A program made the position numbers and the translations under genes. A stretch of 64,000 bases of DNA, from positions 1-64,000 of the IMG/VR virus record IMGVR_UViG_3300008108_007691; one strand, 5' to 3'. Below are positions 9,686 through 62,852 of this stretch, one piece after another. How positions within the stretch are numbered: the first letter of the stretch is position 1; every line of letters begins with the position of its first letter. Origin of the DNA: a virus. The notes below the pieces were generated by a model. It did no database searches. It saw only the letters and a list, made by a program, of their open reading frames with translations, and had not been told where the DNA came from.

Positions 9686-9928
9686 ATGAAAGTGCTAGAG
9701 AAAAAAATGGATAAAGTTATCATAGAACTAACTTCTGAAGAAATTGGAAGATTAGGGTTTGATAAAATCTGGGATGATATCAGATTGATTTATCCAGCTT
9801 CAAAATTTGAAGTTGAACATGTTGATGAAAATCACAATGGAAAAATAATAATAATTAATTTAATAGATCTAGATTTCTATAATTCAATCTTGAGATTGAA
9901 TAAGAATATTAAAGATGATGAAATTTAA
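9686..9928 (+). CDS. Hypothetical protein
   Basis: An 80-residue acidic protein with an alternating alpha/beta pattern (KVIIELTSEEIGRLGF, KIIIINLIDLDFYNSIL), not assigned to a family. It starts 1 nt after the PrsW-like stop, so it is very likely co-transcribed. Its end overlaps the convergent gene by 4 nt. A second in-frame ATG at codon 8 is a possible alternative start. Confidence 0.55.
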   Translation: MKVLEKKMDKVIIELTSEEIGRLGFDKIWDDIRLIYPASKFEVEHVDENHNGKIIIINLIDLDFYNSILRLNKNIKDDEI

Positions 9929-10653
9929 AAATTACTTGTTAATTTATCTATTGTAATTTCTTTAATTATTTTATTTGGAATTGAAACACAATCCCAATAG
10001 ATATCTTTTATCTCTAATCCGATAACATTTCCATTGTTATCAGTAGTAATAATTCTGTCTCCAGCAGTACAGTATTTCAGATTGGATGGAATGTTTATTT
10101 CGTGCTCAGTCCAAAGAATGTTCAATTTAATTTCAATATTATCGTTATCATCTTTAGATGAGCTTTTTAAAAGCTCTGGAATTTTATTTTTATAGTCCTC
10201 TAAAAATTTTCCAATTTGTTCTATTTTTTTGTCAAATTCATTTTGTATTTCATTGATCTTGAAATTATACTTCTCAATAGTAGCATTTAATTTATCATCT
10301 AATTTAACATCGAAATCCTTGGTTATTTGATCTTTTACATCACTAACTTTTGCCTCAACTAGACCTTCGAATTTTAAATTCTGATTATAATTCTTAATTA
10401 AAAAATCTTCATCTTTCAGAATTCTTCTACCACCAGAATATGTATCTATTAGTAGTTTTATGAATTTTGGAGAAGTTACATCAGGGTTATAAATCGGATT
10501 TCTAGGATAATTATATTTAAAAAGAAGCTGATAAATGGCATCATATTCTTGTCCATTATATTTATCTAATATGCTTGGTATATCTGATTTTTTTGATGAA
10601 TTATAAATATCATATAAATCATTTAATAATATTTCAAAGGAATCTCTAGTCAT
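9925..10653 (-). CDS. Hypothetical coiled-coil protein
   Basis: About 242 residues. The longest frame opens at 10677, but that ATG lies inside the ssb terminator stem; the in-frame ATG at 10653 (MTRDSFEIL) is preferred. Residues about 95-165 form a heptad-like helix (TIEKYNFKINEIQNEFDKKI). The C-terminal part, IPSNLKYCTAGDRIITTDNNGN, is beta-rich. No family is recognised; a structural or scaffolding role is possible but unsupported. It sits just downstream of ssb, separated by the terminator. Confidence 0.6.
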   Translation of the reverse strand: MTRDSFEILLNDLYDIYNSSKKSDIPSILDKYNGQEYDAIYQLLFKYNYPRNPIYNPDVTSPKFIKLLIDTYSGGRRILKDEDFLIKNYNQNLKFEGLVEAKVSDVKDQITKDFDVKLDDKLNATIEKYNFKINEIQNEFDKKIEQIGKFLEDYKNKIPELLKSSSKDDNDNIEIKLNILWTEHEINIPSNLKYCTAGDRIITTDNNGNVIGLEIKDIYWDCVSIPNKIIKEITIDKLTSNF

Positions 10654-10671
10654 ACTATTAAATATAAAAAA

Positions 10672-10701
10672 AAACACCCTAAAGTGAACTTTAAGGTGTT
10701 T
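10672..10701 (-). terminator. Rho-independent terminator of ssb
   Basis: On the minus strand: AAACACC pairs with GGTGTTT and the stem extends inward (CTTTA/TAAAG) past one mismatch to a 4-nt loop. A run of nine T follows on the minus strand. It lies 19 nt after the ssb stop. Confidence 0.8.
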
Positions 10702-17714: not shown

Positions 17715-18683
17715 TTATTCACCCAGTGTTAAGTAGTTAGATAATATTTCTTTTGCTTCATCATAACTTTTTAAAGCAATTTTTTGTGTGTAAGAAACTT
17801 TAAAAATCTCTAAATAATTACACAATGTCAAAAATAAATTTATTTCTTTTTGAGAGTACCTGTTTTTCTCTAACTTATTAATGAAATCATTATAACTTGC
17901 CAACTCCATTCCAGATTGTATTTTACCATCATCATAAAGAACACTCAACATATCCATATTTGGTTGTCTCATATCATCTAATCTTTTCTTTTTTTCATCT
18001 AGAATTTTTTGAAAATTTTCTTCTTCATGAGTTTCGACTTTACCATCTGAAATTATCGAATCTAACTTTTCATCCAAGTCAATATTTTCTTCTTCAATTA
18101 CACTTTTCTCTTCTTTACTTTCTACTACTATTTGACTTGATGGAGTATCTTCTAAATTAACTTCAGTATTTTTTTTCAAATCTATATTTTCAGGTAATTT
18201 GTTTTCTTCAATACCAAATGTTTTTCTGATGTAATCAACTAATAAATCTAAAAAAGCAAGAGAAACTATTGGTAAAATACCACCAGATATCAATGCTATT
18301 ATTCTTTTTATAAAAATTGGATCTTCATCTGCCAAACCAAATAATTCAGCCCAATTTTTAATCAAATTTGGTTCAATAACCATTTTCTGTGTCAAAACAT
18401 CATAAGCGTAATATGTATTTCCATTAACTTGAAAAATAGTTAACAAAATAAATATAAACCAAACAACATTTTTATTTATTTTACCCAAAGCAACCAAACC
18501 AGCCAATGCAGATAATGCACCAATTTCAAAAGCAATAGCTAAAGTTAATGCAAGACCAAAACCGTTTGACAGTGAAAAGAAATTAATAACGTGAATCGTA
18601 CTAATTACACTTACACAAATTGGAACTAATAAGAAAGATATTATTATTAGCCAAGTCATTTTTGAAATAGAATTTTTATTCAT
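17715..18683 (-). CDS. Membrane protein with four N-terminal TM segments
   Basis: A 322-residue protein. Four hydrophobic helices are visible at residues about 9-36, 41-67, 71-96 and 128-152. The remaining 170 residues are soluble, acidic and helical (IDLDEKLDSIISDGKV, LDEKKKRLDDMRQPN). The family is not recognised. The layout (bundle in the membrane, long cytoplasmic tail) occurs in phage membrane-anchored scaffold or exclusion proteins, without a specific match. Its start overlaps the stop of the GIY-YIG gene by 4 nt, so both belong to one minus-strand operon that ends at the bidirectional terminator. Confidence 0.65.
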   Translation of the reverse strand: MNKNSISKMTWLIIISFLLVPICVSVISTIHVINFFSLSNGFGLALTLAIAFEIGALSALAGLVALGKINKNVVWFIFILLTIFQVNGNTYYAYDVLTQKMVIEPNLIKNWAELFGLADEDPIFIKRIIALISGGILPIVSLAFLDLLVDYIRKTFGIEENKLPENIDLKKNTEVNLEDTPSSQIVVESKEEKSVIEEENIDLDEKLDSIISDGKVETHEEENFQKILDEKKKRLDDMRQPNMDMLSVLYDDGKIQSGMELASYNDFINKLEKNRYSQKEINLFLTLCNYLEIFKVSYTQKIALKSYDEAKEILSNYLTLGE

Positions 18684-19486
18684 CTTAAATTAAATTTTTT
18701 AATTAATCTATATACAGAAAAGGTTGTTATATTTAGTTTTTTTGAAGTATCTAAAATATCAAAATCATTTTCTTGTAATATTTTTAACAAATTATCTTTT
18801 TTTTCTTTATTTTTTGCTTCGAATGTTTTAGCTCTTGATTCATTAAATTTTTTTAAAAATTCCGGTGATCTTTTCTTGCCTTTTTGCCATACACTACATT
18901 TTTCCTTAAATTCATTAGACGATCTAGATTTTTTTAAAATTTCTGATTCCAACATTGATTTACTAATTTTTTGAGATCTTTCTGGGTTTTTAATAGCCTC
19001 CTTAAATTTTTCTGAATTTTTCACTGATTCACTAATTTTATTTTTCCAATCTTGAGATTCTATAATTTTCTTAACTTTTTCTGATTTTGCCCTAGATTCC
19101 TTTAATTTTTTCTTGTGTTCATCGCCTTCCCACATTTTCTTAAATTTATCTGATTTTTTTAAACCATCTGATATATTTTGTTTATGAGAATCAGTCAATT
19201 TTGGACCATTCCAACTCAAACTATTACCATCGCCCCCTTCAGTTATATTATATCCAATATTTTTATCTTGAGAATTGTAAAATTTAATATAATATTTTTC
19301 TTTTTCATTCAACTCTTCTAAATTATTACAAAAACAAATAATTTCTTTTTTAAAATTATTTTTTCCGTATTTTTTTATACTCTCTTTTAAGGCAACTCCA
19401 CTACCCAAATAATTTTTATTATTTTTCTTATCCTTACCTATATATATCTTACCATTTAAAAGATTTGTAGTTTTGTAAATTATCAT
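18680..19486 (-). CDS. GIY-YIG homing endonuclease with NUMOD3-like repeats
   Basis: A 268-residue free-standing homing endonuclease. The N-terminal nuclease domain shows IYKTTNLLNGKIYIGK (the GIY-YIG signature in its Seg/I-Tev form), YLGSG, the KKYGKNNFKKEI segment, and the closing GYNITEGGDG. From residue 95 the protein has short Ser/Lys repeats typical of NUMOD3 (SHKQNISDGLKKS, WKNKISESVKNS, ERSQKISKSM), which wrap DNA. It ends in a helix-turn-helix (DTSKKLNITTFSVYRLIKKF). Enzymes of this type cut alleles lacking the gene and spread by repair. It overlaps both neighbours by 4 nt, an unusually neat insertion into an operon. Confidence 0.88.
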   Translation of the reverse strand: MIIYKTTNLLNGKIYIGKDKKNNKNYLGSGVALKESIKKYGKNNFKKEIICFCNNLEELNEKEKYYIKFYNSQDKNIGYNITEGGDGNSLSWNGPKLTDSHKQNISDGLKKSDKFKKMWEGDEHKKKLKESRAKSEKVKKIIESQDWKNKISESVKNSEKFKEAIKNPERSQKISKSMLESEILKKSRSSNEFKEKCSVWQKGKKRSPEFLKKFNESRAKTFEAKNKEKKDNLLKILQENDFDILDTSKKLNITTFSVYRLIKKFNLR

Positions 19487-19846: not shown

Positions 19847-20965
19847 TTAATTATTATACAGTGAATTGATTTTCAATGATTTGTTTAAAAAGCCAATTTC
19901 TGGATTAATATTTTCAATGGTAGGTTCTATTTTTTCTTTTATTTGTGAAAGTACATTTAAGGTATTCACATCTAAATTTTTTGGAACAAAAACATTTATA
20001 TGAACGTATAAATCTCCATAACTTCCGTTATTGGGCAATCCTTTTCCTTTTAGTCTTAATATTTTACCATTGTCAGTATTTGGATCAATCTTAATTCTTA
20101 TGTCCTCACCAAAAACATTTATAATAAAATTATCAGTTCCCGTTATAGCATCAATAAAATTTATAAATACATCTCTATGAATATCATTATTGAATTTTTT
20201 ATAAATAATGTGTTCTGATATTGTGCAAAGTATTATCAAATCACCGGGAATTGAGTTAGGAGAATTATTAAAGTTTCCACCATTCTCGATCTTATAAACA
20301 AATCCTTCAGTAATTCCGGGAGGTACGTTTATTTCAATATTTTCAAAGTTTTCTTTTATTCCTCTAGCTCCACAACTATTACAAATTTCATTTATTATTT
20401 TTCCTGCACCATTACAAATATTGCAATGGTTCGAAGTTTGAATTCTACCAAAAGGAGTTTGTACAACATTAATAACACTTCCTTGTCCGTTACAATTATT
20501 ACATGTTTTCAAAGAAATACCTTCTTTAGAACCATTTCCTTTGCAAGATGAACAACAAACATTTCTATTATATTTAATTGTTTTTCTAGAACCATGTACA
20601 ACTTCCTCTAAAGAAAAAGACAATTTGATTCTTAAGTCAGAACCTTTTTGGTTTTGTTGTTGAGGTCTCTGATTATTATTTCTAAAATTAAAGAAATCAG
20701 AGAAAAAATCGAAGTTTGAAAAACCTTGGTTGAAATTTGAAAAATTCCCAAAACCAGAACCTCTATTATCGTATTGTTTTCTTTTTTCTGGTTCGCTTAA
20801 AACAGAATAAGCCTCGTTAATTTTTTTAAATTTTTCTTCGGCTTCTTTATTGTTAGGGTTTAAATCAGGATGATATTTTTTACTTAAAGATCTATAAGCT
20901 TTTTTTATATCATCCTGACTGGCATCCTTAGTTAAACCCAATAATGTGTAAAAATCATCATTCAT
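19847..20965 (-). CDS. dnaJ: Molecular chaperone DnaJ (class I)
   Basis: A 372-residue full-length class I J-protein. The J domain (residues 1-66) has KKYHPDLNP with the HPD motif that triggers DnaK ATPase. A Gly/Phe-rich region follows (GSGFGNFSNFNQGFSNFDFF). The zinc domain has four CxxCxGxG-type units (CSSCKGNG, CNNCNGQG, CNICNGAG, CNSCGARG; the last is degenerate). The C-terminal peptide-binding domains follow (NVPPGITEG, GDLIIL, LKGKGLPNNGSYGDLYV). No DnaK gene is in the window, so it probably works with host DnaK. It lies directly downstream of the ClpC-like genes. Confidence 0.95.
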   Translation of the reverse strand: MNDDFYTLLGLTKDASQDDIKKAYRSLSKKYHPDLNPNNKEAEEKFKKINEAYSVLSEPEKRKQYDNRGSGFGNFSNFNQGFSNFDFFSDFFNFRNNNQRPQQQNQKGSDLRIKLSFSLEEVVHGSRKTIKYNRNVCCSSCKGNGSKEGISLKTCNNCNGQGSVINVVQTPFGRIQTSNHCNICNGAGKIINEICNSCGARGIKENFENIEINVPPGITEGFVYKIENGGNFNNSPNSIPGDLIILCTISEHIIYKKFNNDIHRDVFINFIDAITGTDNFIINVFGEDIRIKIDPNTDNGKILRLKGKGLPNNGSYGDLYVHINVFVPKNLDVNTLNVLSQIKEKIEPTIENINPEIGFLNKSLKINSLYNN

Positions 20966-21005
20966 TATTTAATAAAAATAATAGAATGAACCGAGAAATA
21001 AAATA

Positions 21006-22265
21006 TTAAATATTATCCTCTTTCTTTTTTCTCGTAACCTTTTTTTTGACAACATTTTTAACTTTGGTTTCTTTTTTTTCTTCTCTTTTAGAAATTAAAG
21101 TTCCTTTTTCTTTGTCAAAATCAATGATAATATCATCACCTTTTATAATTTTTTTGAGAAGTAATTCTTTAGACAAAGGAGTTTCAACAAATTTTGTTAT
21201 AACTCTAAGAATAGGCCTTGCTCCATATTCGTCAGAATAACCTTCTTCACCAATAAAATCAATCATTTTATCTGTAAATTCAACATTTATTCCTTGAGAA
21301 ATAACATTTTTTTCAAAGTTTCTTAAATGAATTTTTACGATATCTAATACATTATCTTGGGTCAATTTTTGGAATATAACAACATCATCAATTCTATTAA
21401 GCAACTCCGGTCTGAAATGTTTTTTTAATGCCTTTTCAATTATCCTTTGGTTTTCAAGATTATTTTTCAAAAGATCTGAATTGAATCCTACTGGTTTGTT
21501 TTCAGTAATTTCTTGCGTTCCAATATTTGATGTCATAATAACCACAGTATTTTTAAAATTAATTTCAACACCGTCTCCATCAGTCAATTTTCCTTCATCC
21601 AAAAGCTGTAATAAAATATTTATCACATCTTTATGACCCTTTTCTATTTCATCAAATAAAACAATACTATAAGGTTTATTTCTAACTTTTTCAGTCAATT
21701 GACCGCCATCACCATGACCAACATATCCCGGAGGAGCACCTATTAATTTTGATACACTATGTGGTTCCATATATTCACTCATGTCAATTCTAATTAGCGA
21801 ATCTTCATCATTAAATAAATATTCAGATAGTGCTTTAGATAATTCTGTGTTGTGATGTACAATTCCATTTTCTGTTTGATATAAATGAGTTTCAGAATCA
21901 ACGTGCATATCAAAAACAGTTTCAATTTCACCTGTTAAATTGTTGCTAATTACAGAAATTTTACTTTCATCTGCCTTTTCAACAAAATCTCCGATCAACA
22001 AATTAGAAACTAAACAACATTCATTCTTTTCTTTACGTATTTTGTGATTATCTGCAACTACACAGAAGCTTCCATCAGAAAATTTAATTTCACGAACTTG
22101 ATCTTTTTTTGTGATCATACCTAAAACATTTATCCATTTACCAAATTCGTTTTTGACCATTATTTTAGATTTTTGAAAAATCTCTTTTTCTGGAATAAAT
22201 TCTTGAGCTTCTAATTGAGAAACTGCTTCGAATATCTCTTCTATTTTTACTTTTAATTCAATCAT
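21006..22265 (-). CDS. Split-intein C-half fused to C-terminal part of ClpC-like unfoldase
   Basis: A 419-residue protein. Residues 1-139 are the C-terminal part of an intein: ADNHKI (block B-like, with its His), VFDMHVDSETHLY (block F) and GIVHHN (block G). Thr140 is the +1 extein residue. Residues 140-419 continue a ClpC second AAA+ domain from the final residue of Walker A: LIGAPPGYVGHGDGG, Walker B IVLFDEIEKGH, TSNIG, then KPVGF, a ClpP-docking (V/I/L)GF loop as in ClpC, then RPELLNRIDDVV and GARPILRVI. After trans-splicing to the 23419-24759 product it would restore GSTGIGK-T. The tail is Lys-rich. Confidence 0.92.
   Translation of the reverse strand: MIELKVKIEEIFEAVSQLEAQEFIPEKEIFQKSKIMVKNEFGKWINVLGMITKKDQVREIKFSDGSFCVVADNHKIRKEKNECCLVSNLLIGDFVEKADESKISVISNNLTGEIETVFDMHVDSETHLYQTENGIVHHNTELSKALSEYLFNDEDSLIRIDMSEYMEPHSVSKLIGAPPGYVGHGDGGQLTEKVRNKPYSIVLFDEIEKGHKDVINILLQLLDEGKLTDGDGVEINFKNTVVIMTSNIGTQEITENKPVGFNSDLLKNNLENQRIIEKALKKHFRPELLNRIDDVVIFQKLTQDNVLDIVKIHLRNFEKNVISQGINVEFTDKMIDFIGEEGYSDEYGARPILRVITKFVETPLSKELLLKKIIKGDDIIIDFDKEKGTLISKREEKKETKVKNVVKKKVTRKKKEDNI
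21849..22265 (-). other. C-terminal split-intein fragment (139 residues)
   Basis: Residues 1-139 of the C-half protein. They contain the block B-like ADNHKI, block F and block G, and end in HHN before Thr. The block B motif, normally on the N-fragment, lies here, so the break point is close to the intein N-terminus. This is the rare atypical split known from AceL-TerL and VidaL inteins. Confidence 0.88.
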
Positions 22266-22269
22266 TTTA

Positions 22270-23367
22270 TTATTTTTTTATAAATTTTATGCATTTATCA
22301 ATAGACTCTTTTATTGTATTTGTTGAATGTTTTGGTAATCTAATTCTAAGTACTTCAAAACCATTTTTTATTGCAAATTGTTCTTTAGCTATATCTTTTG
22401 ACAAAGCTTCTTCATAACTTTTATTTGTGTACGCTTGTTTCCAATTTAAACGTTCATTTTCAAGAGCATTTGGATCCGGATGTACGTGAATACCGTCAAA
22501 TTCTATTATTTTTTTTCTATCAAAAAAAGTGAGATCATACCAATACAAAGACATCGTTTCTTTGTCATATAGGTAAAATTCACTTTTTATATCTGAACCG
22601 TAAAATATGGTTTCAGTTTCAATTTCATCAGGTCCAATAATAGATAGAATTTCATCAATGTATTTTTTTGATATACCAGACGCATTCCACATATTTGAGT
22701 GAGTCTTAATATAATTTTCCCATTTTTCTGTAGCCAATTTTTCACCGTACTTAGAAACCATTTTATCTTTGGTTATACACTTGCTTTTTTCAAATTCATT
22801 TTTTTGTTCAAAAGTCATTTTACTATAAAGACTATTTTGCCACTTATCATTACGTTGATTGAATTTGATTAAACCTTCTTTCTCGCCATATTTTAATTTA
22901 AGTTTTTCAAGTGAAAAAGTTGATTGTCTTTCTTTTAATTTTATTTTTGCTTCTTCAATAGTGAATCCTTTTTCTATCCAATACTCAACATAGATATTTC
23001 TTTTTTTTTTGTAATTATTAAGATCATATTTTTTTAAATCTTGCATTACTTCAACCGCTTTTATGTTGTTAATTTTTTGAATTTTAAAAATTTCACTAAC
23101 TGCCTCTTCGTGAGAATAACCCCTTTCTAACCAATATTTTTTATTAAAAAGTGTTTTACAATTAATATAATTTTTTACAAATATATTTCTGAATTTTTTT
23201 ATACCTATTTCATTTTTTTCTGAAAGAGCAACTATAAGATTTTCTCTTTGTCCTTTTTCTAAATTATTTAAATTTTTGAAATTCTTAATCTCTTTACTTA
23301 AATATTTTTCAAACTCTTCTATTGATTCGATATTGAACAATACTTTTTTTCTACTTTTAATTATCAT
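22270..23367 (-). CDS. Free-standing homing endonuclease between split-intein halves
   Basis: A 365-residue protein. Residues about 70-220 carry repeated helical modules (YWIEKGFTIEEAKIKLKERQ, LKLKYGEKEGLIKFNQRNDKWQ, MVSKYGEKLATEKWENY) known from endonucleases linked to fractured genes. The C-terminal 100 residues look like a PD-(D/E)XK/Vsr-type nuclease: LTFFDRKKIIEFDGIHVHPD, then EQFAIKNGFEVLRIR. This matches the EDxHD-type family described by Dassa and colleagues (2009), which sits between split-intein halves in phage-like DNA. Its place here, between the two ClpC-intein genes and on the same strand, is the same arrangement. Its stop is 4 nt from the C-half start. A hairpin abuts its start codon. 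Confidence 0.8.
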   Translation of the reverse strand: MIIKSRKKVLFNIESIEEFEKYLSKEIKNFKNLNNLEKGQRENLIVALSEKNEIGIKKFRNIFVKNYINCKTLFNKKYWLERGYSHEEAVSEIFKIQKINNIKAVEVMQDLKKYDLNNYKKKRNIYVEYWIEKGFTIEEAKIKLKERQSTFSLEKLKLKYGEKEGLIKFNQRNDKWQNSLYSKMTFEQKNEFEKSKCITKDKMVSKYGEKLATEKWENYIKTHSNMWNASGISKKYIDEILSIIGPDEIETETIFYGSDIKSEFYLYDKETMSLYWYDLTFFDRKKIIEFDGIHVHPDPNALENERLNWKQAYTNKSYEEALSKDIAKEQFAIKNGFEVLRIRLPKHSTNTIKESIDKCIKFIKK

Positions 23368-23413
23368 TTAGGAATACAGGGATACTAATTTTCCTATCCC
23401 TGTTAAACCTAAA
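23367..23413 (-). promoter_or_regulatory. Hairpin abutting the endonuclease start codon
   Basis: A perfect 9-bp stem ACAGGGATA (23376-23384) / TATCCCTGT (23395-23403) around a 10-nt loop, extended by an outer 6-bp stem TTTAGG/CCTAAA. It fills the 51-nt gap between the N-half stop and the endonuclease ATG. There is no T-run, so termination is unlikely. It may limit translation of the endonuclease, as hairpins do for I-TevI in T4. Confidence 0.6.
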
Positions 23414-23418
23414 TAGTG

Positions 23419-24759
23419 TTAATTTTTGTTTTTTCTGTTTTCTAATATTTTATTTATTAAAATATCATCAGCCATTATTGTTATTTCTGTATTTTTTCCT
23501 AAACACTTACCAATACCAGTTGAACCAAGAAACAAAAAACTTGCAATAGGTTTTTTTGGATTACTCAATCCAGATCTTGATCGCTGAATAGATTCGGATA
23601 TTTTTTCAATTGCTTCATCCTGTCCAATAACCCTTTTTTTCAACTCTTCACCCATTTTCATTAGACGAACACCTTCACTTTCTGTGATTTGAGTTACCGG
23701 AATTCCAATCATTTTTGAAACGACTCTCGCAATATCATGTTCTGTGACAGGAACCCTTTTGGTTTTTTGTTGATTTTGCCAGTTGTATTTAAAAATCTCT
23801 ATTTCTTTTATTAAATCTCTCTCCTTGTCTCTGATCTTAGCAGCTTGCTCATATTTTTGAGATTTTATTACTTCGTTTTTTTCGTTCTTAAGATCATTCA
23901 ATTTATTTTCAAGAACTTCTAATTCTACTGGTAAGTGGAGATTATCCAAATGTAATCTAGCACCTGCTTCATCAATAATATCGATCGCTTTATCTGGTAA
24001 AAATCTATTGGTAATATATCTAACAGAATAATCTACTGCAGATGTTATTGCTTCGGCATCAAAAGTAACATTATGAAAATCCTCATAAATTCCTTTAATG
24101 TTATTAAGAATAGTTTTAGTTTCTTCAATAGAGGGTTCCTCAATCATTACTTTTTGAAACCTTCTTTCCATAGCCCCATCTTTTTCAATCGATTTTTTAT
24201 ATTCTTCAATTGTTGTAGCACCTATAATTTGCATTGTACCTCTTGCAAGAGCAGGTTTTATAATATTAGAAACATCTAAAGATCCAGCAGAATTACCAGC
24301 ACCAATTATGGTGTGTAATTCATCAATAAATAAAATAATGTTAGGATTATTTTCAATTTCATCCATAATTGCTTTCATCCTTTCCTCAAACTGACCTCTG
24401 TATTTTGTTCCGGCAACTATGAGTGAAATATCTAAGCTTACTATTCTTTTATCATGAAGAACAACACTAACCTTTTTATCAACTATTTTATTTGCAAGAG
24501 ATTCTACAATCGCAGTTTTACCTACACCGGGTTGACCAACTAATACAGGATTATTCTTTTTCTTTCTACTTAAAATTTGAATAATTCTATCTACTTCATT
24601 TTCTCTTCCTACTGCAGGTTCAATTTTTCCAGAAGCAGCTAATTTTGTAATATCTTTTCCAAAATTATCTAACAGCGGAGTGTTTGATCTATTTTTTTTA
24701 TTGTTATTCCCATCAGAAGGAAATAATAATTTAGAGTCATCCAAATCTTCTATAGCCAT
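23419..24759 (-). CDS. N-terminal part of ClpC-like unfoldase fused to split-intein N-fragment
   Basis: A 446-residue protein. Residues 1-418 are ClpC-like: only about 35 residues precede the first AAA+ domain, so the usual N-domain is missing. The first AAA+ has Walker A GQPGVGKT, Walker B IILFIDELHTI and GATTIEEYKK. A UVR-like middle segment follows (KSQKYEQAAKIRDKERDL), then VSKMIGIPVTQI and the start of the second AAA+, ending exactly at GSTGIGK. Residue 419 is Cys1 of an intein (CLGKNTEITIMADD, block A), which runs only 28 residues to the stop. The protein would be inactive until trans-spliced with the 21006-22265 product, giving a ~698-residue unfoldase. Confidence 0.92.
   Translation of the reverse strand: MAIEDLDDSKLLFPSDGNNNKKNRSNTPLLDNFGKDITKLAASGKIEPAVGRENEVDRIIQILSRKKKNNPVLVGQPGVGKTAIVESLANKIVDKKVSVVLHDKRIVSLDISLIVAGTKYRGQFEERMKAIMDEIENNPNIILFIDELHTIIGAGNSAGSLDVSNIIKPALARGTMQIIGATTIEEYKKSIEKDGAMERRFQKVMIEEPSIEETKTILNNIKGIYEDFHNVTFDAEAITSAVDYSVRYITNRFLPDKAIDIIDEAGARLHLDNLHLPVELEVLENKLNDLKNEKNEVIKSQKYEQAAKIRDKERDLIKEIEIFKYNWQNQQKTKRVPVTEHDIARVVSKMIGIPVTQITESEGVRLMKMGEELKKRVIGQDEAIEKISESIQRSRSGLSNPKKPIASFLFLGSTGIGKCLGKNTEITIMADDILINKILENRKNKN
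23422..23505 (-). other. N-terminal split-intein fragment (28 residues)
   Basis: The fragment starts at the Cys directly after the Walker A GIGK and ends at the stop codon. Block A (CLGKNTEI) is clear and block B is absent. It pairs with the 139-residue fragment at 21849-22265. The combined 167 residues match a mini-intein without an internal endonuclease. Confidence 0.88.
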
Positions 24760-24803
24760 ATTTTTTATTTTTAAATTTAAATTAATATTTTGAAATTTGT
24801 AGT

Positions 24804-25229
24804 TTAGTTGCCTGTGCTACCAAAACCACCTTCTCCTCTATCAGTAGTATTCAATTCATCAACCTCTTCAAAAATTACATTTGGAACAGGCATAATAATT
24901 ATTTGAGCAATTCTATCACCTATTTGATATAATTTCCGAGGATTACCAAGTTCTTTCAATCTTACTTTAATCTCACCACGATAACCCGAATCTATTACAC
25001 CAACACAATTAGCTTGAATTTGAGAAGTTTTACTTGCAGAGCTTCGAGGAAAAATAAATCCAGCATAACCATCAGGAATTTCAATCGCTAATCCAGTTCC
25101 ATACTCAGTATAGAATCCATTGGGATCTACAGTTAAAGATAATGCAGTCAAATCCATTCCTGCATCACCCATTTTAGCATAACTTGGAATAATTGCGTTG
25201 GGGTCTAATTTTTTAATTTTGATTAACAT
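24804..25229 (-). CDS. dut: Deoxyuridine triphosphatase (dUTPase)
   Basis: A 141-residue trimeric-type dUTPase with all five motifs in order: GDAGMDL, PRSSASK, GVIDSGYRGEI, GDRIAQIIIMP and the C-terminal RGEGGFGSTG arm that closes over the active site. It hydrolyses dUTP to dUMP and PPi, which keeps uracil out of phage DNA and supplies dUMP for thymidylate. The length is normal and no active-site residue is missing. The gene precedes the ClpC N-half by 44 nt and follows a small ORF by 1 nt, within a minus-strand operon that begins near 25946. Confidence 0.97.
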   Translation of the reverse strand: MLIKIKKLDPNAIIPSYAKMGDAGMDLTALSLTVDPNGFYTEYGTGLAIEIPDGYAGFIFPRSSASKTSQIQANCVGVIDSGYRGEIKVRLKELGNPRKLYQIGDRIAQIIIMPVPNVIFEEVDELNTTDRGEGGFGSTGN

Positions 25230-26495: not shown

Positions 26496-26990
26496 TTACC
26501 TAGGGATCATTTTTATCATCCTGTCATAGTTCTCTTGAGCCTCTTCTTTGGTTTCATATGTTCCAAAATTAAAAACACGACCCTCAGGACTGATGTACTT
26601 AGCTTCAAAAACAATTTTTTCTTTGACACCACTAGAATTATCTGAAATGATGTTTTTTACCTTATCATCAGATGTTTTTTCAGGATTAAAAAGTCCAAGC
26701 TGTGCGTCTTTTTTGATAATCTGCATTTCAGGAGACACTATTTTAACGTTTGTTTTAACCATGTTTTCTCTACGACAATCTAAGGTATTGCCATTTTTAA
26801 ATGTTATGTTGAAAACTTCGTTAGGATCATCTTTCATAATAAACTTATGCAAAAGTCCATACTTTTGATTTCTGGCATAATACCTTCCAGTATAAAATGA
26901 TGTTGCCACCCATTTGTATTTTAACAACTTGTAATAGTCATTCTCATCTACTAAAGCTACCTGCCCATTTGATAATGGTAATTCTTTCAT
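26496..26990 (-). CDS. Degenerate HNH/AP2-type DNA-binding protein
   Basis: A 164-residue protein with the layout of phage HNH-AP2 endonucleases. The N-terminal module (LSNGQVALVDENDYYKLLKYKW, then LLHKFIM) is the typical lead into an HNH site, and NGNTLDCRREN is its usual end. The catalytic DH pair between them is replaced by FNITFK, so the nuclease is probably dead. The C-terminal 40 residues (AKYISPEGRVFNFGTYETKE) resemble an AP2-like DNA-binding module. It may now act as a DNA-binding regulator, or be a decaying homing gene. It lies 5 nt from the next upstream gene. Confidence 0.6.
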   Translation of the reverse strand: MKELPLSNGQVALVDENDYYKLLKYKWVATSFYTGRYYARNQKYGLLHKFIMKDDPNEVFNITFKNGNTLDCRRENMVKTNVKIVSPEMQIIKKDAQLGLFNPEKTSDDKVKNIISDNSSGVKEKIVFEAKYISPEGRVFNFGTYETKEEAQENYDRMIKMIPR

Positions 26991-37353: not shown

Positions 37354-37758
37354 TTAAAGTGCTGCGGATGAACCAGTATCTGTTAAAGATCTTGGTGGAT
37401 AACTAAAATTAACTTCAAATTGACCTATTTCTCCGGGCTTTATAGATTTTCCCATAGTCCCGTAGAAATTAAAGAATAATTTTTTCGTTCTTCCAAATCT
37501 ATTATCAGGTATTACACTGGCACCCTCTTTTGTGGTATTAACAAAGTCATATATTGCATTCAATAAACCTTGATCTGCTTGAGTCATTGCGACCCATTGA
37601 TTTACCGATACTGCATCATTTACATTGGCAGCAACAGCTTCTCCTTGTACGGTCGCTGTACTTAAACTTGGACCCAAAGTAACTTCAGATTGTAATTCTG
37701 AAAAATTATTTTCAGTCAATCTTGCTGATAAATCTTTGTTGACTATTGCTCTTCCCAT
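37354..37758 (-). CDS. Small virion-type protein, tandem copy 1
   Basis: A 134-residue protein nearly identical to the next gene: only three residues differ (G2 to A, E24 to Q, V42 to I). The sequence has AMTQADQGLLNAIYDFVN and FFNFYGTMGKSIKPGEIG. I recognise no family; its place among structural genes and its size suggest a small virion protein. Silent differences between copies show that the duplication is not an exact repeat collapse. Start and stop contexts are intact in both copies. Confidence 0.65.
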   Translation of the reverse strand: MGRAIVNKDLSARLTENNFSELQSEVTLGPSLSTATVQGEAVAANVNDAVSVNQWVAMTQADQGLLNAIYDFVNTTKEGASVIPDNRFGRTKKLFFNFYGTMGKSIKPGEIGQFEVNFSYPPRSLTDTGSSAAL

Positions 37759-37788: not shown

Positions 37789-38193
37789 TTAAAGTGCTGC
37801 GGATGAACCAGTATCTGTTAAAGATCTTGGTGGATAACTAAAATTAACTTCAAATTGACCTATTTCTCCGGGTTTTATGGACTTACCCATAGTACCATAA
37901 AAATTAAAGAATAGTTTTTTTGTTCTGCCAAATCTATTATCAGGTATGACACTTGCACCTTCTTTCGTGGTATTAACAAAGTCATATATTGCATTCAATA
38001 AACCTTGATCTGCTTGAGTCATAGCAACCCATTGATTTACCGATACTGCATCATTTACATTGGCAGCAATAGCTTCTCCTTGTACGGTCGCTGTACTTAA
38101 ACTTGGTCCTAGTGTCACTTGAGATTGTAATTCTGAAAAATTATTTTCAGTCAATCTTGCTGATAAATCTTTGTTTACTAATGCTCTTGCCAT
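37789..38193 (-). CDS. Small virion-type protein, tandem copy 2
   Basis: A 134-residue twin of the gene at 37354-37758. It starts MARALVNKD rather than MGRAIVNKD and carries Q at position 24. The two genes are 30 nt apart, in the same direction. Both keep full reading frames, so dosage or formation of a hetero-oligomer may be selected. The function is unknown. Confidence 0.65.
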   Translation of the reverse strand: MARALVNKDLSARLTENNFSELQSQVTLGPSLSTATVQGEAIAANVNDAVSVNQWVAMTQADQGLLNAIYDFVNTTKEGASVIPDNRFGRTKKLFFNFYGTMGKSIKPGEIGQFEVNFSYPPRSLTDTGSSAAL

Positions 38194-54457: not shown

Positions 54458-57199
54458 ATGACACCTCAAGAGATACAAGAATATATTAAATGTGCAAAAG
54501 ATCCAGTTTATTTTCTAAATAACTATGGATATGTTTATGATATTAGAAAAAGCAAAGTAGATAAATTATCTTGTTTTGAGTATCAAGAGAATGTATTGAA
54601 AAATTACATAAAATATCAGAATAATATTATTCTAAAATCAAGACAATGTTTACCAGAAGATACTTTTATAAGTACACCAGATGGGCCAAAAAAAATAAGT
54701 GAAATAAACAAAGGAGATATAGTATATTCATTCAATTTAAATAAAAATAAATATGAATTAGATACGGTTTATGATCATTGGGAATGCGGAGAAATAGAAT
54801 CTGTAAAAATAAAATTAAAAGATTCAAGAAATATTGTTGTTGGTGAAAATCACCCTTTTTTCATAAAAAATAAAAACAAATGGGTATCAGCAAAAGATTT
54901 AGAAATTGACGATGAAATTTTAGATCAAAAATTTCAATTTGGGGAAATTGAAGCTGATATAAATGAAATAAAATTGTTAGCTTATCTCATAACGGATGGA
55001 AGTACAATCAAACAAGTAAAATTTACAAACAACAATATTGATTATCTAAAAGAATTTGAAGAATCAATAAATTATATTTTTCCAGAATTAAGTTTAAGAA
55101 AAATACCAAAACTAAAAGGATTCGATTATTTACCTCATCAAAAGCATGGGGTTAATACCAAAAGTCCAATCATGGAATGGTGTGAAAATAAAAAAATAGC
55201 TGGAAAGAAAACAGAAAATAAAATATTACCTCAAGAAGTTTTTTATTGGAATAAGAATTCATTATCTATTTTATTAAATAGAATGTTTGCAGGAGATGGT
55301 TGGATAAGTATTTTAAAGAAAAAAACAAATAAAAGATTAGAAATAGGAATAGCTTCCCCAAGCAAGGAATTTTTAGAACAAGTAAAATTTTTATTAAAAA
55401 AATTTGATATTAAATGTAATATTTATGAAGTTAAAAATATGAAACTTCAAAAAAATCCTTTTTTTAAATTAAGAATAACTCACTCCAAAAGCATATCAAA
55501 ATTTATTAATGATATAGGAATTTATAAAAAAATAAATTCAGAACACGTTTCAATTTCAAATTCAAGAAAACATGATGTAAAAGATCAATCAAAAGTTAGA
55601 AAAATAGAGAGAGTTGGAAAAATTAATTGTTATGACATTTCAGTAACTAAAAATGAAAACTACTTTATTGATGGTCTTTTAGTTCACAATACAGGACTTT
55701 CTGTAATCACAGCAGGCTTTGTAGTTTGGATGTTATTGTTCAAAATGGACCAAAGAATATTAATTGTTGCAAACGATGGTGCTGGAGCAATTCGTTTTTT
55801 AAGTACCGTTAAACAATATTTTCAATTTCTTCCTAAATTTTTATTTGATCCAGATACACAATCTGAAAAAGACAATGAAAAATTCTTTTCATTGAAAAAT
55901 CCAGAAGGTAAAATATCATGGGTAAAAGCAGTTGCAAGTTCCAAAAATGCAGGTCGTGGAGAATCATTAACAATGTTGATATTGGATGAGACTGCGTTTA
56001 TAGAGAATGCAGAAGATATTTGGATGGCTGCTGGTCTTGCTTTATCTGCAACACAAGGTAAATGTATCATGATAAGCACTCCACAAGGCACGGGGAACCT
56101 ATATCATAGAACTTGGGTTGGAACAAAAAAGAGTGAAAATGATTTTATACCATTTGAAATACATTGGACTCAACATCCTGTTTATTGTAAAGAAATGGAG
56201 GAAAAAATTAATGATTATGGTCAAAAATATTGGACAAGTCCATGGTATGAAAAAGAATGTGAACGATTACAGTATGATAGGGTAAAAATCGCACAAGAGT
56301 TAGATTTGTCATTTGAGGGTTCAAGACAATTGGTTATTGAAAGTGCTATTATTGAAAAATACAAAAGATCTATTATAAACGAAAAACCAGAATTTTATTA
56401 TGATTATACAAGGTCTGAAGAAAGATTTATCAATACAAAAACAAATTTTTGGGTTTGGAAAAAACCAGAATATGGAAAAAACTACATTGTGGGCGGAGAC
56501 GTTGCAAGAGGCGATTCAAAAGACTTTTCAACATTACAAGTTTTTGACGCTGATACATGTGAACAAGTAGCAGAGTATCAAGGTAAAATTCCACCAGATG
56601 TATTTGGAAGCTTAATTGATAAAGTTGGACGTGATTATAATAATGCTTATTTGGTAATCGAATGTAATAGTTTTGGTTTAGCAACAACTTTGAATATAAA
56701 AAATAGTCTTAAATATCCAGAAGACAGAATTTATCATTCAAAATCAATAAAAGACATTATAAATCCGGTAGCAAAAGTTAAAATCAAAGAGAATGATGAT
56801 ATTCCCGGTATTCAAACAACTCAGGTAACAAGACCTTTAATTATAAGCAGTTTAAATTCTTATATGAGAGAAGGAAAGATTAAGATAAATTCAGTGAGAT
56901 TACTGGAGGAATTTGATACTTTTATATATAATGGCAATAAACCAGAACATGCTGATGGATTTAATGATGATTTAATTTTTGCTTTGGGAGTATTACTTTT
57001 TGTAAGAGATACTGAATATTTCAAACATTTTGCCAGTAGAGATTTATACAAAGCTATGATTGGTGCGATTTCGAACCAAAAAACTGAAATCGGAGATAAA
57101 ATAGATTTTGATTCCAAACCAACAGAGGGTATTATTTTGACGAGTCAAAACAGAAAATCAGACGATGATAATGATTTGAGCTGGTTGATGTCTGGATAA
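54458..57199 (+). CDS. Terminase large subunit, interrupted by an intein
   Basis: A 913-residue precursor. The extein (residues 1-63 and 412-913, 565 residues) is a terminase: SRQ-TGLS at the Walker A site (T4 gp17 has SRQLGKT), Walker B LTMLILDETAF (about 503-513), the coupling motif ISTPQGTGN, and the nuclease domain with GGDVARGDSKDFS (about 677-690) and FNDDLIFALG. It packages DNA into the prohead through the portal, encoded next. Residues 64-411 are an intein at the Walker A motif that must be spliced out for activity. The Walker A Lys is absent from its usual place (GLS for GKT), as in other TerLs with a displaced Lys/Arg. No small terminase gene is recognised beside it. Confidence 0.93.
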   Translation: MTPQEIQEYIKCAKDPVYFLNNYGYVYDIRKSKVDKLSCFEYQENVLKNYIKYQNNIILKSRQCLPEDTFISTPDGPKKISEINKGDIVYSFNLNKNKYELDTVYDHWECGEIESVKIKLKDSRNIVVGENHPFFIKNKNKWVSAKDLEIDDEILDQKFQFGEIEADINEIKLLAYLITDGSTIKQVKFTNNNIDYLKEFEESINYIFPELSLRKIPKLKGFDYLPHQKHGVNTKSPIMEWCENKKIAGKKTENKILPQEVFYWNKNSLSILLNRMFAGDGWISILKKKTNKRLEIGIASPSKEFLEQVKFLLKKFDIKCNIYEVKNMKLQKNPFFKLRITHSKSISKFINDIGIYKKINSEHVSISNSRKHDVKDQSKVRKIERVGKINCYDISVTKNENYFIDGLLVHNTGLSVITAGFVVWMLLFKMDQRILIVANDGAGAIRFLSTVKQYFQFLPKFLFDPDTQSEKDNEKFFSLKNPEGKISWVKAVASSKNAGRGESLTMLILDETAFIENAEDIWMAAGLALSATQGKCIMISTPQGTGNLYHRTWVGTKKSENDFIPFEIHWTQHPVYCKEMEEKINDYGQKYWTSPWYEKECERLQYDRVKIAQELDLSFEGSRQLVIESAIIEKYKRSIINEKPEFYYDYTRSEERFINTKTNFWVWKKPEYGKNYIVGGDVARGDSKDFSTLQVFDADTCEQVAEYQGKIPPDVFGSLIDKVGRDYNNAYLVIECNSFGLATTLNIKNSLKYPEDRIYHSKSIKDIINPVAKVKIKENDDIPGIQTTQVTRPLIISSLNSYMREGKIKINSVRLLEEFDTFIYNGNKPEHADGFNDDLIFALGVLLFVRDTEYFKHFASRDLYKAMIGAISNQKTEIGDKIDFDSKPTEGIILTSQNRKSDDDNDLSWLMSG
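54647..55690 (+). other. TerL intein with LAGLIDADG endonuclease (348 residues)
   Basis: It runs from Cys64 (CLPEDTFISTPDG, block A) to VHN411, with Thr412 as the +1 residue. Block B is VVGENHPFF, and block F/G is INCYDISVTKNENYFIDG and LLVHN. The endonuclease has two LAGLIDADG-type helices: LLAYLITDG (about 172) and LLNRMFAGDGW (about 275). The intein splits SRQ from TGLS. Confidence 0.93.
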
Positions 57200-57258: not shown

Positions 57259-60200
57259 ATGGCAAACGAATTAGACCCAAAAAGTGTATTTTATGGTGTT
57301 ATGAGGGCTTTAAGAGGTCGAAAAGACCCGATGAAGTCTTTGGAACAAAGTAAGGATATATTATCCAGTACTCCTCCGACACAATCCTCTGATATTAATT
57401 TTATTCAGCAAAAACAACAACAATATCTTGACATACAATCTGTTAAAATTGCTCAAGATTTATATTCAAGAACGTTGTTTTATGATTCAGACAGAATTAC
57501 AGCATATAACGATTTTAGGTCCATGGATTTGTCTCCTGAAATCGCTGCTGCTTTAGATATAATCTCAGATGAAGTTTGCACTAGAAGTGAAAGGGGTCAT
57601 GTAATAACAATATATTCTGATAATTTAAGAATAAAGAAAATTTTACAAGAATTATTTTATAATACATTAAATGCTGAATTTAATTTAAGTTTTTGGACAA
57701 GAGAATTATGTAAATACGGAGATTGTTTCTTGAAATTAGAAATTGATCAGGATCAAGGAATATACGATTGTATGATTTTACCAGTTGGTGAAATTCATAA
57801 AGAAGTTGGTTATGATGGAAATCCAAAATCGACAAGATACAAATGGGATATTAACAATATGTTTTTTGAGGAATGGCAAGTTGCTCACTTTTGTTTATTA
57901 TTTGATGCTTCAAGATTGCCTTATGGTAGAAGTTTGTTAGATCCTGCAAGAAAACTTTGGAAACAATTACAGTTAGCAGAAGACGCTATGTTGGTTTATC
58001 GTTTATCCAGAGCACCTGAGAGGAGAATATTTTATATTGAAGTTGGGAACACAGATCCAAATGATGTTTATCAATTAATTGAGCAGGTAAAAAAGAATGT
58101 TAAAAAATCTCCTGTTGTTGATCCGAATAGTGGTCAAGTAAATTTAAAATACAATCCAATAACTTACGAAGAGGATTATTTCTTGCCAATAAGAGGGGAT
58201 AAGAGTTCTAAAATTGAAACTTTACCCGGAGCATGTCTTGCTTTAGATACAAAAATTGAATTATTAGATGGAAGAAGCCTAGAACTAAAAGATATAATTT
58301 CTGAATTTGAAAATGGAAAACAACTTTGGTCATATTCAATTAATCCAGAAACAGGAGAAATAGTTCCCGGAAAAATAACTTGGGCTGGATTAACTAGAAA
58401 AAATACTGATGTAGTAAAAATAACATTAGATAATGGTGAAACAATTACCACAACACCTGATCACAAATTTCCAACTAAATTTAATGGAATTAAACAAGCA
58501 AAGGATTTGCAAATAGGTGAATCTATGTGGTCATTCAATAAAAAATTTCAAAAAATTAAAGGAGCTGGTAAAAAAAGAAAAAGAAACACTTATGAAATGG
58601 TGTTTGATCATAATTCAAATGAATGGATATATACACATAGATTAGTAGCTAATTATTTTAAAAATTTAAATGAACATGAAATATTTTCATATCTAAATGA
58701 ATATTTTGATAGTGAAAAAAACACAATTCATCACAAAGACTTCAATAGATATAACAATTCACCCGAAAATTTATGTTTTATGAATCCGAAAGATCATTTT
58801 TATTATCACCAAGATAAAATTGATGAAATGTATAAATTTTTTGGAAATGAAATAACTGAATCATGGAAAAAAGAAAGAAAAAAGGGACTTGTAAAATATT
58901 TTGAAAACCTTAGCCCTGAAGAGCTTGATAAAAAAATAAAGACAGCGATAGATAACAGTTTAAAATCAAGAAAAAAATCAGCTTCTACTTTTAAAAGTAA
59001 TCCAAAAAAAGATGAAATAATTAAAAGAACTTCTAATAAAGCAAAAATAACTAAAAACAAGTTAGAAAATAAAATTCGATACAGTCAAAACTCAAAAAAA
59101 TTATGGGAAAATAAAGATTATGTAGAAAGTGTTATTGGTCCACAAAGGATTAAATATGATGAAAGAATGATCTCTATTTTATCTGATTTGATAAAAAATG
59201 GTTTTAATAAAACTCAGGATATTTTACCAATTATAAATGATTCAAACAATGAATTTTATAAAATTTTTAATGAGTTAAATTCAAATAATAAACAATTTTT
59301 AAAAAGCAAAGGAATCACACATAATAATTTAGATAAATTAGTAAAACATTTTGGATACAAAAATTGGAGAGAATTCAAAAATAGTGCTTATTGCTACAAC
59401 CATAAAATTGTTTCAGTGGAATTTTTATCCGATAAACAAGATACAGGAACTATCACAATTGATGGCCCTGAACAATATCATAATTTTCACAATTTTGCTT
59501 TAACCGTAGGCATTTTTACACAAAATTCTAATTTAGATGCCATAGCCGATATAGAATATTTACAAAACAAATTATTTGCTGCAATCAAAGTTCCAAAAAC
59601 ATATTTGAACTATGCTGAATCTATGCCGGGAGGTTCAACTCTTTCTCAAGTTGATTTGAGATTTGCTAGAACTATAAACAGAATTCAAGAACAGATAGTT
59701 CTTGAATTAAGAAGAATAGCTAATGTACATTTATACTTTTTAGGATTTGAAGATGACTTAGATAATTTTACTTTGACTTTGACAAATCCATCAACACAGC
59801 TAGAGTTATTAAAACTCGAAACTTGGAAAGCAAGAATGGAAGTTTTCAAAGAATTATTCTCAAGTGATGCCACTGCTCCTGTTTCTTATTCTTGGGCAAT
59901 GGAATATATTCTAGGTTTTTCAAAGTCAGAGATCAAACAAATTCTTAGACAAAAGAAAGTTGAAAAGAAAATGTTTTCTGAGATTGAGAGAGCAAATGAT
60001 GAATATATGGATACTGGTATATTCAAAGATTTGGATGAAAAATTTAGAAAACCAGATTTTGATGCTGGTGATGGTGGTTCAACACCTGAAGGTGGATCTG
60101 AATCATCAGGGGGAGAAGAGTCCAGTGGAGGTTTTGGAGGTTCTAGCGTATTAGGTGGTCTTGGAGGTGGTGCAGAAGCAACACCAGAAGCAACCCCTGA

Positions 60201-60402
60201 ATTAGGAGGAGCTGAAGCAGCACCGGAAGCAGGTGGAACTGAACCAGCAGCAGGCGGAGCAGAAGCTGAAGCTGGTGCCCCTTTAACTGAAAATAAATTA
60301 ATTGTTGAAAATAGAAAATTTGATATCCAAACAAGAAAAATGATGAAAAGCATAGACTCATATTTGAATAAGATCAAGGATGAGAATAGTGATTCTGAAT
60401 AA
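57259..60402 (+). CDS. Portal protein (T4 gp20-like), interrupted by an intein
   Basis: A 1,047-residue precursor. The extein (residues 1-325 and 757-1047, 616 residues) is a T4 gp20-type portal: YNDFRSMDLSPEIAAALDII, the clip/stem region DPARKLWKQLQLAEDAMLVYRLSRAPERR, VNLKYNPITYEEDYFLP, IETLPGA-SNLDAIADIEYLQ, and KLFAAIKVPKTYL. The dodecamer is the DNA channel at the head vertex and docks the terminase. The C-terminal 100 residues add a Gly/Ser/Glu/Ala tail (GGFGGSSVLGGLGGG) that is not in gp20. Residues 326-756 are an HNH-type intein. The gene follows terL by 59 nt. Confidence 0.93.
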   Translation: MANELDPKSVFYGVMRALRGRKDPMKSLEQSKDILSSTPPTQSSDINFIQQKQQQYLDIQSVKIAQDLYSRTLFYDSDRITAYNDFRSMDLSPEIAAALDIISDEVCTRSERGHVITIYSDNLRIKKILQELFYNTLNAEFNLSFWTRELCKYGDCFLKLEIDQDQGIYDCMILPVGEIHKEVGYDGNPKSTRYKWDINNMFFEEWQVAHFCLLFDASRLPYGRSLLDPARKLWKQLQLAEDAMLVYRLSRAPERRIFYIEVGNTDPNDVYQLIEQVKKNVKKSPVVDPNSGQVNLKYNPITYEEDYFLPIRGDKSSKIETLPGACLALDTKIELLDGRSLELKDIISEFENGKQLWSYSINPETGEIVPGKITWAGLTRKNTDVVKITLDNGETITTTPDHKFPTKFNGIKQAKDLQIGESMWSFNKKFQKIKGAGKKRKRNTYEMVFDHNSNEWIYTHRLVANYFKNLNEHEIFSYLNEYFDSEKNTIHHKDFNRYNNSPENLCFMNPKDHFYYHQDKIDEMYKFFGNEITESWKKERKKGLVKYFENLSPEELDKKIKTAIDNSLKSRKKSASTFKSNPKKDEIIKRTSNKAKITKNKLENKIRYSQNSKKLWENKDYVESVIGPQRIKYDERMISILSDLIKNGFNKTQDILPIINDSNNEFYKIFNELNSNNKQFLKSKGITHNNLDKLVKHFGYKNWREFKNSAYCYNHKIVSVEFLSDKQDTGTITIDGPEQYHNFHNFALTVGIFTQNSNLDAIADIEYLQNKLFAAIKVPKTYLNYAESMPGGSTLSQVDLRFARTINRIQEQIVLELRRIANVHLYFLGFEDDLDNFTLTLTNPSTQLELLKLETWKARMEVFKELFSSDATAPVSYSWAMEYILGFSKSEIKQILRQKKVEKKMFSEIERANDEYMDTGIFKDLDEKFRKPDFDAGDGGSTPEGGSESSGGEESSGGFGGSSVLGGLGGGAEATPEATPELGGAEAAPEAGGTEPAAGGAEAEAGAPLTENKLIVENRKFDIQTRKMMKSIDSYLNKIKDENSDSE
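58234..59526 (+). other. Portal intein with HNH endonuclease (431 residues)
   Basis: It runs from Cys326 (CLALDTKIELLDGRS, block A) to GIFTQN756, with Ser757 as +1. Block B is TTTPDHKFPT; block F is YHNFHNFAL. The usual penultimate His is Gln (TQN). The endonuclease is HNH: IHHKDFNRYNNSPENL at about residues 490-505, followed by long Lys-rich helices for DNA recognition. Confidence 0.92.
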
Positions 60403-62747: not shown

Positions 62748-62784
62748 TAAAAATTATAAAAAATTATAAAAAATTAGAAAAGTG

Positions 62785-62815
62785 TTGTCTTTATAGTTCA
62801 TATTTCTTATATTTG
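62785..62815 (+). promoter_or_regulatory. Bacteroidetes-type promoter of sigma factor 2
   Basis: TTG (62785-62787), a 20-nt spacer, and TATATTTG (62808-62815), a consensus -7 element of the Bacteroidetes primary sigma. It is 37 nt upstream of the ATG at 62853. The gene is thus probably read by the unmodified host polymerase. Confidence 0.72.
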
Positions 62816-62852
62816 TGAGATTACTTTTATCTATAGTAAAATCACAAACAAA

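Follow-up and report, generated by a model that had tools for sequence, protein, structure and literature searches.

Fractured genes, in which the halves of a split-intein gene are separated by a free-standing endonuclease gene, were reportedly described by Dassa et al. 2009, and those cases are said to concern host genes other than clpC and inteins split at the usual C-terminal position. Inteins with an atypically short N-terminal fragment (IntN) include AceL and GOS TerL, which are split at position S2 and have IntNs of 25 and 37 residues, and VidaL and PolB16, which are split at position S1 and have IntNs of 16 and 15 residues (PMC13014065, PMC11766414). The Pseudomonas jumbo phage MIJ3 is described as carrying a split PolB intein with an HNH open reading frame (ORF) between the halves (PMC6892783). 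Inteins are also described in ClpP of green-algal chloroplasts (PMC5784728) and behind the Walker A lysine of the archaeal MCM and VMA proteins, so that the insertion site between this lysine and the following threonine is itself already known (PMC10643990). Gene fragmentation by introns and inteins has been reported for gut phages, in passages that do not name ClpC (PMC12363816, PMC7886860), and ClpP, ClpA and ClpX are named in jumbo phages, in passages that do not tie them to inteins (PMC7824862). Here, we analyzed a gene for a ClpC-like unfoldase in the virus record IMGVR_UViG_3300008108_007691, of which positions 1 to 64,000 (the window, the first part of a record of 72,304 bases) were studied; positions without a locus number refer to this window.

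Very probably, a naturally split intein breaks the clpC gene at the Lys/Thr junction of the Walker A motif in the second AAA+ domain (D2), with an endonuclease gene in the gap, and trans-splicing would yield a scarless ClpC. The three ORFs are consecutive on the minus strand, with spacers of 51 nt between the N-half and the endonuclease and of 4 nt between the endonuclease and the C-half (Table 1). An earlier examination of the letters and ORFs (hereafter, the sequence-only reading) had described the N-half as running through GSTGIGK into 28 intein residues starting with Cys1, and the C-half as 139 intein residues ending in HHN followed by Thr and the rest of D2, and both descriptions agree with the ORFs. 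The layout likewise bears out the predicted junction, and the exteins of 418 and 280 residues sum to the 698 residues expected of the product. The free-standing endonuclease gene that had been placed between the halves is an ORF of 365 residues, and the order N-half, endonuclease, C-half recurs at the related loci L005, L006 and L007, the last of which has two extra small ORFs. In the proposed mechanism, the IntN of 28 residues would bind the C-terminal intein fragment (IntC) of 139 residues and complete a Hint fold, Cys1 and Thr+1 would perform the acyl shifts, and Asn139 would cyclize, giving a scarless product with a complete D2 P-loop. In addition, clpC genes that are not interrupted at the D2 site are probably cleaved there by the endonuclease, which would thereby spread the cassette by homing.

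Table 1. Features of the fractured clpC locus, with positions in the window.
Feature	Position	Strand	Length and remarks
N-half ORF	23419-24759	-	446 aa; ends GSTGIGK + CLGKNTEITIMADDILINKILENRKNKN + stop
N-extein: ClpC-like D1, UVR middle segment, D2 up to GSTGIGK	23506..24759	-	418 aa
D2 Walker A GSTGIGK, predicted splice junction behind Lys	23506..23526	-	
Putative IntN, Cys1 to Asn28	23422..23505 (stop codon 23419-23421)	-	28 aa; by position and block A
RNA hairpin (predicted), start codon of endonuclease fully paired	23365..23415	-	-21 kcal/mol
Endonuclease-like ORF, free-standing, N-terminal helical segments	22270..23367	-	365 aa
Candidate Vsr / I-Bth0305I-like C-terminal domain, endonuclease residues 228-365	22273..22686	-	by structure alignment of the model
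C-half ORF	21006-22265	-	419 aa; first 139 residues end in GIVHHN and are followed by TELSKALSEY
IntC ending HHN	21849..22265	-	139 aa
Block B equivalent ADNH	22044..22055	-	by 59-row alignment
Block G HHN (penultimate His, terminal Asn)	21849..21857	-	
C-extein: Thr+1, remainder of ClpC D2 and small domain	21009..21848	-	280 aa

The region was recovered without mismatches from three more metagenome contigs with three dataset numbers (7,973, 13,257 and 13,257 bases aligned), so that the split in clpC is not an assembly error; in place of a continuous clpC frame, the identical split was seen in each of them. Nothing was found in favour of the halves being exons joined at the RNA level by an endonuclease-carrying intron: the spacers between the ORFs measure no more than 51 and 4 nt, and positions 20900-24900 gave no Rfam match up to E 1. 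We consider the probability of an artefact or of such an intron to be negligible. The longest of these three contigs, with 216,699 bases, contained a single match to the N-half as well as a ClpP gene. A second ClpC was looked for and rejected, with the N-half matching once in this 216.7-kb record and once in a 54-kb record, both of which may be incomplete. A bacterial origin was also rejected: a seeded scan of 84,980 species genomes returned 13 stretches, of which 3 were relatives, located on metagenome-bin contigs of 12.3, 3.8 and 5.1 kb; the seed patterns were strict, and absence from the other genomes is not established thereby.

Searches of the two halves against Pfam identified AAA_lid_9 (1.2e-31), UVR (4.3e-6), AAA_2 (4.6e-57) and ClpB_D2-small (2.4e-20), which corresponds to two AAA+ domains (D1 and D2) with a UVR-type middle segment. 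The solved chains nearest to the D2 part were ClpC (E 2.6e-80), with the best ClpB at 1.1e-73. The protein also has a VGF segment, which falls opposite the VGF of B. subtilis ClpC in the alignment; this segment has a role in ClpP binding. On the grounds of the UVR segment, the best solved matches and the VGF segment, we classify the protein as ClpC rather than ClpB. No N-terminal Clp_N domain was present among the 25 of 32 Pfam rows listed, and the match to the ClpB model begins at profile position 146, which is residue 20 of the protein; because the N-terminal domain is absent, we use the term ClpC-like. Neither half by itself holds a complete D2 ATP site. The ClpP-like gene of the longer contig of the same phage (L221:2777-3343, minus strand) encodes 188 residues, its product may form a partnership with the spliced unfoldase, and it is located about 2.7 kb past the left edge of the window; and ClpP was present in 4 of 10 virus records queried.

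The assignment of the C-terminal intein fragment is supported by profile searches. With the focal sequence left out of the IntC profile, the C-half was detected at E 1.1e-10 among 1,040 ORFs in the window, followed at 0.0038 by the TerL ORF, which itself bears an intein. Against solved inteins the best match of the profile was CatC (5.4e-8), and Pho RadA, VidaL, gp41-1 and PolB16 were also matched. These similarities support membership in a family that is associated with phages and akin to the Cat (AceL/GOS TerL) inteins. The predicted catalytic residues are C1, H74 in block B, H138-N139 and T+1, and in an alignment of six IntC sequences A71, D72, N73, H74, D119, H138 and N139 were invariant.

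The IntN was identified by Cys1 directly after the Walker A lysine, by the block-A-like CLGKNTEITI and by the stop 28 codons on; split relatives have IntNs of 28-39 residues, and the focal break point was placed in an alignment by eye. A further relative, L067, carries an intein of the same kind unbroken within one ORF of 1,013 residues and without an endonuclease. The predicted structure of this continuous intein (predicted local distance difference test score, pLDDT, 85.8; predicted template modeling score, pTM, 0.78) models as a Hint fold, with VidaL as the best Foldseek match (E 7.5e-9) and other inteins next. In the model, a helix at residues 23-37 is followed by a loop at residues 39-48, which is the sole segment with a score below 50 and lies just past the point where the IntNs of the split relatives end. 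The claim of the sequence-only reading that the break precedes block B is borne out. That reading had named both AceL and VidaL as precedents; the length and place of the focal IntN fit the S2 position of AceL and GOS TerL, not the S1 position of VidaL.

Relatives of the locus were collected in a scan with the C-half (161 relatives, 80 kept) and in two further scans, for which alignments of 6 and of 59 sequences were used (60 and 541 relatives, 60 and 80 kept). The 250 IntC hits, pooled over all loci, formed 150 clusters under 90% identity. A locus was called split if its IntC match began within the first 150 residues of an ORF that was not truncated at the edge of the contig, and only the ClpC maps were inspected singly. 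By this definition, 32 IntC clusters were located at the ClpC D2 Walker A motif, 31 of them split and 1 continuous, and an endonuclease was found within 1.5 kb upstream in 27 of the 31. Another 12 clusters were located in ClpC D1, all split and 5 with an endonuclease, for a total of 44 associated with ClpC, while the remaining ones were classed as TerL (61), SbcC (5) and other (40). The residue after the intein was Thr in 114 of the 150 clusters, Ser in 18, Cys in 13, and other or missing in 5. Both Walker A motifs of ClpC are thus hit repeatedly, and the focal case is not solitary. The sequence-only reading knew of no ClpC example, and open-access full text yielded no publication that describes an intein in ClpC or phage ClpB (subscription literature lay outside the search).

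The relatives also revealed further insertions. A second insertion point in D1, GEPG/C (the slash marks the junction), lies three residues before GK/T and was seen in L128, L138, L152 and L153, which have a more distant group of IntCs. A different continuous intein with a long insert occupies the same D2 site in L035 and L037. In L008 (2055-5660) a continuous intein is located in the D1 Walker A motif, and its first residue is Ala, not Cys or Ser. An Ala-starting continuous intein at the D1 Walker A motif was also observed in L178, L180 and L193, there alongside a split intein in D2.

The IntC is under constraint in the relatives, with ratios of nonsynonymous to synonymous divergence (dN/dS) of 0.09-0.40 in the 15 pairs listed of 176 ClpC-D2 pairs with dS <1.2. 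This bears on the idea that the two halves act as a non-covalent complex without splicing, as is reported of the split NrdA of phage Aeh1 and gp43A/B of Aeromonas phage 25. Enzymes that are split in this way, have a homing endonuclease at or close to the break and are active are indeed described (PMC2988022), but here both broken ends bear intein-like sequence with HHN/T at the junction, the break separates the Lys and Thr of a Walker A motif, and IntC shows the constraint given above. We therefore regard such a complex as highly improbable.

The endonuclease gene belongs to a family that recurs next to these inteins. A family profile built without the focal sequence detected the middle gene at 2e-48 among the same 1,040 ORFs, and an IntC was found within 1.5 kb downstream in 72 of 80 loci retrieved with the endonuclease alignment (a set that includes 3 copies of the focal locus). 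No match was obtained for the profile among PDB sequences. In the predicted structure (pLDDT 81.5, pTM 0.45), the C-terminus may have a fold like that of Vsr and I-Bth0305I: with VIA-align 2, residues 227-365 scored Z 9.7 and 8.8 for Vsr, 8.7 for a putative endonuclease and 8.4 for I-Bth0305I, with mitoribosomal chains also scoring 8.4 and 8.1. Vsr-like homing endonucleases such as I-Bth0305I have an EDxHD motif in the active site. In the family alignment of 48 rows, E289 and H296 were invariant and D278 nearly so.

Several results weigh against a functional split intein with an accompanying endonuclease. A profile of IntNs from 36 ClpC-type relatives missed the focal N-half at E values as high as 10. 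Of the two fragments taken as intein by the sequence-only reading, the C-terminal one is matched by solved inteins and the N-terminal one is missed by the profile of its own family. In a weakly resolved tree (11 of 139 inner branches starred), in which the position of the focal row is unsure, the terminal branch of the focal IntC is very long (1.72), and its identity to each of the 141 other rows does not exceed 34%. For the selection test there was no close but non-identical focal copy and no partner with dS <1.2. Foldseek on the endonuclease model gave nothing below E 0.001, the best being AbaSI at 0.029 and Vsr at 0.26. Finally, block B has Ala71 in place of the usual Thr; this Ala is invariant, along with the Asp and His of ADNH, in an alignment of 59 rows and is thus a family trait (the alignment is the 64-row version, in which IntN rows were misplaced, minus five rows). 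The long branch and the IntN missed by the profile are also what would be expected if the focal intein had decayed and ClpC function had been lost from the phage. However, all three frames remain open and have the same sequence in each of four records; Cys1, the block B His, the block F Asp, the terminal HN and Thr+1 are retained, as are the D1 and D2 extein motifs and the phage ClpP, and we judge decay to be even less probable than a complex without splicing.

A working split intein may also be part of a mobile cassette. Correlations of protein distances, calculated for the 23 of 32 D2 loci that have all parts, were 0.83 for the two extein parts, 0.78 for endonuclease-IntC and 0.74 for IntN-endonuclease, 0.61 for D1b-IntC, 0.55 for both IntC-D2 and IntN-IntC, and only 0.50 for endonuclease-D2 and 0.30 for IntN-D2. 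Synonymous divergence was lower in IntC than in the distal extein in 196 of 250 ClpC-D2 pairs, and 11 of 13 disjoint pairs concur, these having been chosen by low IntC divergence, which favours that result. In 11 disjoint pairs with the closest exteins, the protein distance of IntC compared with D2 was lower in 2, equal in 2 and higher in 7. Since the correlations set the IntN and the endonuclease apart from the exteins, with IntC intermediate, and the pair tests are mixed, the data suggest but do not show a mobile cassette; they hint at one that moves apart from its host gene.

The spacer at the start of the endonuclease gene folds into a hairpin (Table 1) with z -4.15, matched by 1 of 200 shuffles. 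Among the endonuclease starts at ClpC loci, 16 of 25 had z <= -2.5 with a paired start codon, as compared to none of the 16 starts of C-halves and 5 of 52 genes in the window (focal endonuclease included). The 25 were taken from 29 candidates (27 plus L178 and L187) after exclusion of L088:1052, L138:1872, L152 and L275; the count hinges on the choice of start, as upstream TTG codons in L088 and L139 would give no strong hairpin, and many of the 16 positive starts share one sequence and are not independent. Covariation was not above that of shuffles: across 8 distinct rows, none of the 16 base pairs had changes in both partners. Structures that occlude the start are known for I-TevI, segB and Aeh1 mobE (PMC2988022). 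By analogy with these homing endonucleases of T4-type phages, the hairpin would limit or delay translation of the endonuclease. Separately, of the 52 genes in the window, a different one (9925-10677, minus strand) had the strongest hairpin at its start codon (z -6.1).

The focal phage has a split in D2 only. At 14 other loci, which reduce to six by their junctions (L006, L088, L117, L128, L138, L282), split IntCs precede both D1b and D2b, so that ClpC would be assembled from three polypeptides in six lineages. The first D1 piece was located in five of the six and was not found in L282. In L088, five genes occur in a row: D1a-IntN, endonuclease, IntC-D1b-IntN, endonuclease, IntC-D2b. The D1 site is GK/T in L006, L088 and L117 and GEPG/C in L128 and L138, and the extein resumes with TGKSS in L282. 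Over their last ~115 residues, the two IntCs within a locus share 74/108 (L006), 75/114 (L117) and 61/113 (L088) residues, and the more distant pairs 35/104 (L128) and 35/106 (L138), while the two IntNs of a doubly split locus have 4 to 14 residues in common. The middle polypeptide, IntC(D1)-extein-IntN(D2), has the permuted layout that cyclizes a protein if the fragments are compatible. There is a slim chance that the pairs cross-react, in which case one locus would yield three products, namely full-length ClpC, a D1 fragment closed into a circle, and a shortened chaperone with the first piece joined directly to D2; unfoldase architecture would then be set by the choice of splicing during infection.

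Other genes in the window include a complete DnaJ with three domains (19847-20965, minus strand) directly downstream of the ClpC C-half, with which it forms a small chaperone cluster. Also near clpC is a GIY-YIG / SegE-like endonuclease (18680-19486, minus strand), slightly under the Pfam cut-offs, and a weak HNH_3 match (E 0.009, under the cut-off) was obtained at 26496-26990 on the minus strand. The TerL ORF (54458-57199, plus strand) contains a continuous intein of ~348 residues between SRQ and TGLSV, a length that permits an endonuclease insert; among the matches listed, the nearest TerL proteins (32-34%) are from Microcystis phage Mel-JY01, an uncultured phage and Flavobacterium phages immuto. 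A second continuous intein, with Cys after LPGA, an end near TQN/SNLDA and an insert that looks HNH-like by eye, is located in an ORF named portal-like by eye (57259-60402, plus strand). Two adjoining genes of 134 residues (37354-37758 and 37789-38193, minus strand) are almost identical and point to a recent tandem duplication, and two adjoining genes at 61890-63716 (plus strand) resemble sigma-70 family factors by eye.

With these results, the genes that host naturally split inteins come to include one for the unfoldase of a proteolytic machine. The results also point to a phage-associated family of split inteins with short IntNs, many of them at P-loop Lys-Thr/Ser junctions. Short natural IntNs are useful for protein labelling, and the family supplies many new pairs. 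The doubly split clpC genes make it possible to ask, in a natural setting, whether two related split inteins remain orthogonal when they occur in the same protein, and the start-codon hairpins offer a testable link between gene fracture and the timed expression of an endonuclease.

As far as the published descriptions extend, the focal intein is most like AceL, GOS TerL and Cat, with which it shares a short IntN, an S2 split before block B and a phage-type P-loop host gene, and CatC is the best solved match of its IntC profile. It differs from AceL and GOS TerL in its host gene, which is ClpC instead of a terminase, and in having Thr as the +1 residue. VidaL and PolB16 OarG also combine a short IntN with a long IntC but are split at S1, with IntNs of 16 and 15 residues, and PolB16 uses Ser1 and Ser+1. 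Continuous homologs are found in cultured phages, of which 321 records match the intein of L067; in the 30 of these that were listed, which match the full query in one place with 31-36% identity, 26 are annotated as terminases, 3 as hypothetical proteins, 1 record is unannotated and none is a Clp protein. These terminase mini-inteins are thus continuous, unlike the focal intein. The ClpP inteins of green-algal chloroplasts likewise interrupt a gene of the Clp system, yet in the peptidase subunit and in chloroplast genomes, not in the unfoldase. MIJ3 shares the jumbo phage background, the split intein and the endonuclease ORF between the halves, whereas its host gene is DNA polymerase B, its split is at the typical late position and its endonuclease is of the HNH type. 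With a free-standing endonuclease gene, possibly of a Vsr-like type, between the halves, the clpC locus fits the fractured-gene arrangement that Dassa et al. 2009 are said to have described.

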